A stretch of DNA of 5,058 nt from Candidatus Nitrosopumilus sp. (lineage in GTDB: Archaea > Thermoproteota > Nitrososphaeria > Nitrososphaerales > Nitrosopumilaceae): NCBI GenBank assembly GCA_011055585.1, contig DRGT01000100.1, positions 1-5,058 on the forward strand. Reading direction: 5' to 3'. The position numbers and the translations under genes are program-made. The notes under the pieces are model-generated. The model ran no database searches and was not told where the DNA came from. It saw nothing but the letters and a program-made list of their open reading frames with translations. Positions 3,688 to 3,812 of this stretch are shown here, one piece after another; within the stretch, counting starts at the first letter, position 1, and every line of letters begins with the position of its first letter.

Positions 3688-3694
3688 TTTTAAA
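3688..3694 (+). promoter_or_regulatory. TATA element of the tRNA-Gln gene
   Basis: TTTTAAA is centred 32 bases before the mature tRNA 5' end, followed by G-rich AAGG. Archaeal transcription starts about 25-27 bases after the TATA centre, so the transcript would begin near 3717 and RNase P would remove a leader of about six bases. It is the best archaeal promoter match on the plus strand in the window, and its position relative to an independent tRNA gene supports it. Confidence 0.6.
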
Positions 3695-3722
3695 GGAAAT
3701 TAGATTAAAGTCGTCGTCCGGC

Positions 3723-3812
3723 AGCCCGGTAGAGGAGAAATCCGCTGAATGTAGAGGTCAAGCATAGGGGCCTTTGGAGCCCTTGACCCCAGTTCGAATC
3801 TGGGCCGGGCTA
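3723..3812 (+). tRNA. tRNA-Gln (anticodon UUG) with a 17-base insertion before the D-arm
   Basis: Decodes glutamine codons CAA and CAG. The acceptor stem is AGCCCGG (3723-3729) paired with CCGGGCT (3805-3811), with discriminator A at 3812; CCA is not encoded, as usual in archaea. The D-arm is ATGT / GCAT (3749-3752 with 3762-3765) around loop AGAGGTCAA. The anticodon stem GGGGC/GCCCT (3767-3771 with 3779-3783) closes loop CTTTGGA, giving anticodon TTG at 3774-3776. The T-arm is CCCAG / CTGGG (3788-3792 with 3800-3804) around TTCGAAT. The gene is 90 bases; a normal tRNA needs only two bases between acceptor and D-stem, but here there are 19. Removing 17 restores a 73-base tRNA with U8-A9. In archaea this tRNA is commonly charged with Glu and then amidated. 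It is divergent from the chaperone operon and ends 21 bases before the convergent permease gene. Confidence 0.95.
3732..3748 (+). other. 17-base insertion in tRNA-Gln: candidate non-canonical intron or inserted hairpin
   Basis: These bases (equivalently 3731-3747, because A3731 and A3748 are interchangeable) are extra to a standard tRNA and sit at position 9/10 between acceptor and D-stems. Together with flanking bases they can form a hairpin: T3730-G3747, A-T and G-C pairs, one A-G mismatch, then GGA/TCC closed by a GAAA tetraloop at 3737-3740. Intron-containing tRNAs with unusual intron positions are known in Thermoproteota and Nitrososphaerota, which favours an intron. However, I could not draw the standard bulge-helix-bulge motif (3-nt bulge, 4-bp helix, 3-nt bulge) at either possible pair of splice sites. 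The insertion is certain from the fold; that it is spliced out is inference. Confidence 0.6.

Follow-up and report, generated by a model that had tools for sequence, protein, structure and literature searches.

The window, by which we mean the whole stretch of 5,058 nucleotides analyzed here, derives from a Nitrosopumilaceae-like archaeon and contains genes for DnaK, a GrpE-like ORF, a conserved ORF of 379 amino acids, a tRNA, and the permease and ATPase of an ABC transporter (the names DnaK, GrpE and ATPase are presumptive assignments from the sequence). PF01061 is found in relatives of the permease, which one source calls ABC-2 type permease. Of the named GTDB loci, the closest relative is the MAG Nitrosopumilales archaeon NPMR_NP_theta_1 (L001), whose 379-aa ORF is 87% identical and whose DnaK is 91% identical to its counterpart in the window. 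We also looked for phage relatives and found none.

The tRNA gene (positions 3723–3812, + strand) encodes tRNA-Gln with the anticodon TTG, and its acceptor stem is formed by AGCCCGG and CCGGGCT. As reported in a first-pass annotation of this DNA, 17 extra bases are present between the acceptor stem and the D-arm, and these can be read directly from the window sequence. ARAGORN calls the gene as tRNA-Gln(ttg) but places its 5′ end inside the insertion, at position 3739 (the call spans 3739–3812), which shows that the 5′ end of this gene can be misplaced by standard annotation. The match to Rfam RF00005 in the window is limited to 3748–3804. A TATA-like box is present upstream; when the distance from TATA box to gene was compared between intron-bearing and intronless genes, two box types were found to compete. 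The features of the locus are collected in Table 1. The base at tRNA position 33 is near-universally U; a C is present instead in the tRNA-Gln genes of L001, L020, L304 and L306, whose anticodon loop has the sequence CC(T/C)TGGA.

Table 1. Features of the tRNA-Gln(TTG) gene and its leader, in window coordinates (A1 is the first base of the tRNA; BHB, bulge-helix-bulge).
Feature	Position	Strand	Sequence	Basis
TATA-like box	3688..3696	+	TTTTAAAGG	Read from the sequence; centre approximately 31 bases before A1
Putative leader copy of acceptor bases 2–7	3716..3721	+	GTCCGG	Comparison of intron-bearing and intronless leaders; three-way covariation
Exon 1: acceptor 5′ strand (3723–3729), U8, A9, G10	3723..3732	+		Sequence and intronless orthologues
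Exon strand of the BHB central helix	3727..3730	+	C5 G6 G7 U8	4/4 pairs in 108/109 distinct genes
Predicted 17-nt BHB intron, position 10/11	3733..3749	+	AGGAGAAATCCGCTGAA	Alignment to intronless orthologues; base-10 test
Intron helix	3734..3743	+	GGA / GAAA loop / TCC	Compensatory changes, 109 genes
Intron strand of the BHB central helix	3744..3747	+	GCTG	Variants across genes keep the pairing
Exon 2: D-arm from U11, anticodon TTG, T-arm, acceptor 3′ strand (3805–3811), A73 (3812)	3750..3812	+		Sequence, ARAGORN, Rfam

Of 80 named loci that share the neighbouring ORF, 73 yielded a tRNA-Gln gene, nine with the insertion (L001, L020, L028, L029, L030, L046, L052, L064, and L065) and 64 without it; no gene was obtained from L002, L008, L011, and L066–L069, and L234 was likewise unparsed. 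The insertion is therefore variable among relatives, and the junction found in the intronless genes equals the spliced product, which points to an intron and supports the earlier proposal that a normal 73-base tRNA is obtained only after splicing. For all further comparisons we used the distinct leader-plus-gene sequences among the loci listed, 109 of them intron-bearing and 110 intronless, which do not represent a census; the intron-bearing set comprises 96 distinct exon-1-plus-intron sequences. Left out of the counts were L111 (a spurious parse of an intronless gene), and L336 and L431/L449 (not tRNA genes).

These comparisons fix the position of the intron. Most intronless genes read AGCCCGG-TAG-TGTAG, and the intron-bearing genes, when cut between bases 10 and 11, read AGCCCGG-TAG-(intron)-TGTAG. 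In the window, joining 3732 to 3750 gives GGTAG/TGTAG, the same junction as in the intronless orthologues. The first-pass annotation had placed the splice at 9/10 (intron 3732–3748), which is one base off. Under splicing at 10/11, base 10 is a G in 109/109 distinct intron-bearing genes (the window included), whereas under splicing at 9/10 it would be A in 59, G in 39, T in 8, and C in 3 of these genes. As the base before the intron is always G and the base before TGTAG is variable, the intron comprises positions 3733–3749, and splicing at 9/10 is rejected.

No standard BHB motif had been visible in the earlier reading, but one appears once the register is set to 10/11. In the window, C5G6G7U8 can pair with GCUG of the intron, with the bulges AG^A and AA^U and the inner helix GGA/UCC. 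The two bulges have the expected geometry of three nucleotides on opposite strands with a cut after the second base (marked ^), at the junctions set by the intronless orthologues, the cuts themselves being predicted. Of the hairpin described previously, the GAAA tetraloop stands, closed by the three base pairs GGA/UCC; the supposed A-G mismatch does not, as these bases and the adjoining pair belong to the 5′ bulge and to the first part of the central helix. The 4-bp central helix of archaeal BHB introns (CGGU/GCUG in the window) is complete in all but one of the distinct genes. Its intron strand reads GCCG in 63, ACCG in 19, GCTG in 18, ATCG in 5, GCGG in 3, and GCCT in a single gene, and of these variants the first four pair with CGGT and GCGG pairs with CCGT, while GCCT leaves one mismatch. 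The helix is mostly lost when slid out of register (0.10–0.30 of pairs).

The intron-side helix (GGA/UCC) shows strong covariation across the 109 genes. Its pairs 1–5 form in 99.1, 94.5, 92.0, 77.1, and 80.0% of 109, 109, 100, 70, and 50 genes, respectively, and the observed pairing at any of these was reached in 0/2000 shuffles, which excludes chance for this helix. Controls in which the helix was slid gave lower values, which were not low throughout (0.00–0.88, the peak of 0.88 being pair 2 slid by one). The length of the intron varies from 14 to 45 nt. A single intron among the 109 (L338, genome G220) ends in TT instead of A plus any base, and this gene is present on two contigs. In some divergent relatives (L309, L341, L343, L369, and L370) the tRNA-Gln gene seems to contain one or two introns in addition to that at 10/11, located downstream of the D-arm and around the anticodon.

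The strict form (hBHBh′) also has an outer exon helix, which is absent here: in the five precursors whose folds were inspected, bases 1–4 were unpaired once the leader was paired, so that the motif has the relaxed rather than the strict form. Such a relaxed motif is described as the kind cut by (αβ)2 endonucleases (PMC6379350). Two proteins of the endonuclease family PF01974 were found in each of the 8/8 relatives examined (their broad specificity is putative), and archaeal RNase P RNA in 6/6 relatives. The first-pass annotation had considered that a relaxed substrate is cut by the tRNA endonuclease, and we hold this to be probably right. Judged from the alignments and helices, the insertion is a non-canonical archaeal BHB intron at position 10/11, a non-canonical subtype as it does not lie at the canonical position 37/38.

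The leader of the window gene contains a hexamer that is identical to acceptor bases 2–7 at 5/6 positions and can pair with 3805–3810 at 6/6, once as G-U. Within 20 nt of A1, such a copy is found at 6/6 in 83, at 5/6 in 25, and at 4/6 in 1 of the intron-bearing genes (n = 109), and at 6/6 in 1, at 5/6 in 4, and at 4/6 in 28 of the intronless genes (n = 110), with 77 of the latter scoring lower. Thus, a copy of at least 5/6 is present in 108/109 intron-bearing vs. 5/110 intronless genes, and one of at least 4/6 in 109/109 vs. 33/110; shuffled leaders reach 5/6 in 7.2%. In a first set, the leader motif was present in 77/77 distinct intron-bearing and 0/91 intronless genes, apart from two artefacts (intronless TTTTGG leaders that also matched the motif expression and are not copies). 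A lenient leader score with full credit for G-U pairs also gave 6/6 for 6/91 intronless leaders, and identity to the acceptor was used as the criterion for that reason. All nine intron-bearing genes that were found later carry the copy (8 exact, 1 at 5/6), and a chance pattern match in the same search had a leader at 4/6; as these nine genes are related to the rest, they control for sampling but not for shared descent.

The copy lies 0–4 nt from A1 in 103/109 genes and 8–13 nt upstream in 6 (L343, L344, L345, L369, L370, and L381, which at first appeared to be exceptions). All 25 changes at its three middle C's are C to T opposite G, such that the pair is kept, and in two copies (ATCCGG and GCCCGA) an end base breaks the pairing. 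The base following the copy is T in only 9/109 genes, which indicates that U8 is as a rule not copied. A function of the leader as acceptor strand of the mature tRNA was also considered and rejected, since U8 would then need a T at this position. One intronless tRNA-Gln gene (L324, genome G059) has an exact leader copy with the spacer TGG; the copy may have been left behind when the intron was lost, or may stem from a tandem duplication that arose by chance.

Three of the 109 genes (in G176, G181, and G351) have a C at acceptor position 6, and in these both the leader and the intron match the change: the acceptor is AGCCCCG/CGGGGCT, the leader GCCCCG, and the intron strand GCGG. All three strands have changed together, such that both pairings, of the leader with the acceptor 3′ strand and of the intron with the acceptor 5′ strand, are preserved as possibilities. 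This three-way change probably reflects one evolutionary event. That the leader follows the changed acceptor favours a pairing of RNA strands over a DNA motif. In addition, CCCG of the leader is unable to pair with CCCG of the acceptor in these genes, which excludes a hairpin between the leader and the acceptor 5′ strand. A search for further acceptor variants in 300 genomes of the order yielded no new one.

The intron at 10/11 of tRNA-Gln is present in at least 112 of 400 genomes of the class. This number derives from 112/400 genomes with a pattern match, from which one chance genome (G044) was subtracted and to which G110 was added, where the parse revealed an intron of 45 nt (L152) that is too long for the pattern; a second match in G120 was also due to chance. 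Two intron-bearing copies on different contigs occur in G220, G231, and G362, with different introns in G362, and these could be either mixed assemblies or real paralogues. We mapped the intron on a midpoint-rooted DnaK tree with 61 rows, consisting of the window and a chosen set of 30 genomes with and 30 without the intron, on which 5 changes are needed and at least 3 are forced by well-supported branches. At the longest split, 14/14 rows on one side are intron-bearing, and 17/47 on the other side, in several places. The sign test on independent pairs gave p = 0.25 for the intron, a test that cannot reach significance with only 3 such pairs. The simplest reading of this distribution would be several losses of an ancestral intron.

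Folding energies were calculated for the 109 genes with the D- and T-arms held, comparing the BHB with leader pairing to the ordinary acceptor state. The BHB state is predicted to be favoured in 80/109 genes with their own leader, in 0/109 when the leader is barred from pairing, in 9/109 with a random intronless leader, and in 25/327 with shuffled leaders (60, 0, and 0 in an earlier version of the folding, for which the leaders were shorter and 77 genes were used). In 29/109 genes, the window gene being one of them, the BHB state is not favoured. For the window, the ordinary acceptor state has the lower predicted energy (-38.6 vs. -32.0 kcal/mol), because pairing of U8-A9-G10 with CUG of the intron can lengthen the acceptor helix, and an unconstrained fold of the 90-nt gene without leader also kept the acceptor state. 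According to these predictions, protein binding would have to pay the energy difference for the window to adopt the BHB state.

Comparison of the genes provides the intron position, the BHB helices, and the leader copy with its joint change with acceptor and intron; from these we infer that the leader is transcribed and pairs in the cell, and that strand exchange and splicing precede 5′ maturation. Overall, we consider it likely that the leader stands in for the acceptor 5′ strand until the intron is removed, with splicing before 5′ maturation. Upon formation of the BHB, C5–U8 of the acceptor would pair with the last helix strand of the intron (GCUG in the window), which makes these bases unavailable to the 3′ acceptor strand at the same time. 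The leader copy would then replace the 5′ acceptor strand by pairing with 3805–3810, and the precursor would fold as a cloverleaf with a borrowed acceptor and an extra BHB arm. A two-subunit endonuclease may cut this precursor after G10 and after the last base of the intron, a ligase would join the exons, and the true 5′ strand could subsequently displace the leader. At that point RNase P would meet a normal acceptor stem and remove the leader. RNase P needs the true acceptor stem, so that in this model splicing comes first.

An alternative is that we are dealing with an ordinary non-canonical BHB intron at 10/11, and that the upstream motif plays no role in splicing, being either a promoter or initiator element of the DNA or the remnant of a duplication. 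Consistent with this, the motif adjoins the start site expected from the TATA-like box, the genes are related by descent, L324 has a copy without an intron, and the predicted energies of the window itself point the same way. We nevertheless regard this explanation as unlikely, because the motif tracks the acceptor change in the three genomes with GCCCCG, it lies anywhere between 0 and 13 nt from A1, 109/110 intronless orthologues have no exact copy, and nothing above 4/6 was found upstream of 32 other tRNA genes of one genome (G007), those listed among its 37 tRNA matches. It appears quite improbable that the leader copy acts as a decoy or slows splicing by pairing with the central-helix strand of the intron or with the 5′ strand of the acceptor. 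It is true that a copy of C5–G7 is necessarily able to form 3 bp with CCG of the intron, and that CCGG is self-complementary, such that a leader-acceptor hairpin is possible in genes with GCCCGG; however, this hairpin fails in the AGCCCCG genes, the copy includes G2, C3, and C4, for which the intron offers no partner, and it rarely extends to U8.

We find it very hard to believe that the helix is never removed and that the tRNA functions with the extra arm in place, as this would leave unexplained why the insert varies in length and yet conserves the geometry of a BHB where the cuts are expected; the D-stem is kept by G10 and U11, the insert is missing from many orthologues, and endonuclease-family proteins are present in relatives. 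The earlier suggestion that this copy is decaying while a second, normal tRNA-Gln(UUG) gene exists is scarcely credible. Two tRNA-Gln matches do occur in some other genomes of the class, but there was one match per genome in 12/12 genomes, 9 of which are intron-bearing, the intron occurs in at least 112/400 genomes of the class, all arms are intact, and the helices are kept by covariation. Returning to the leader as a substitute acceptor strand, we incline, by a little more than even belief, to a broader version of it, in which an ancient, class-wide three-strand switch uses a leader selected as stand-in acceptor strand, RNase P waits for intron removal, such that 5′ maturation is coupled to splicing, and leader and intron have been lost together several times.

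For introns near the acceptor stem, the splice motif and the acceptor stem need the same exon strand. The tRNA-Gln family suggests a solution, in which the leader substitutes for the missing strand. The 5′ leaders of tRNAs, usually seen as discarded, would thereby gain a role in folding, and the model predicts a processing order that is testable in cultured ammonia-oxidising archaea.

Non-canonical introns in thaumarchaeal tRNAs are already known (PMC8450103). The passages covered by the literature search describe neither an acceptor-mimicking leader nor a 10/11 intron; the latter may already be listed elsewhere, e.g., in tRNAscan-SE tables or among the D-arm introns reported for Caldiarchaeum (PMC3293823). 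The intron described here resembles the relaxed-BHB introns (hBH or HBh′) spliced by (αβ)2 endonucleases (PMC12397907) in that it is short and has a central helix of 4 bp, two bulges of 3 nt, and a helix on the intron side, and in the two endonuclease-family proteins present in relatives. The non-canonical positions given in PMC4090602 are 20/21, 22/23, 25/26, 29/30, 30/31, 45/46, 53/54, 56/57, 59/60, and 3/4, a list ending in "etc.", and 10/11 is not among the positions named in this open-ended list. Unlike these introns, that of tRNA-Gln has its central helix on the acceptor 5′ strand and is accompanied by a leader copy. In split (trans-spliced) archaeal tRNAs, sequences outside the tRNA body likewise pair and bring the BHB together (PMC3293823). 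There it is the leaders of the two partners that pair, whereas the tRNA-Gln precursor would be one transcript in which the leader mimics an exon strand. The order of tRNA processing may differ between organisms (PMC7714728). In Methanopyrus kandleri, in which two tRNAs have an unusual D-loop intron, the tRNA ends are reported to be trimmed before the introns leave (PMC3695527), and for tRNA-Gln our model predicts the opposite order.
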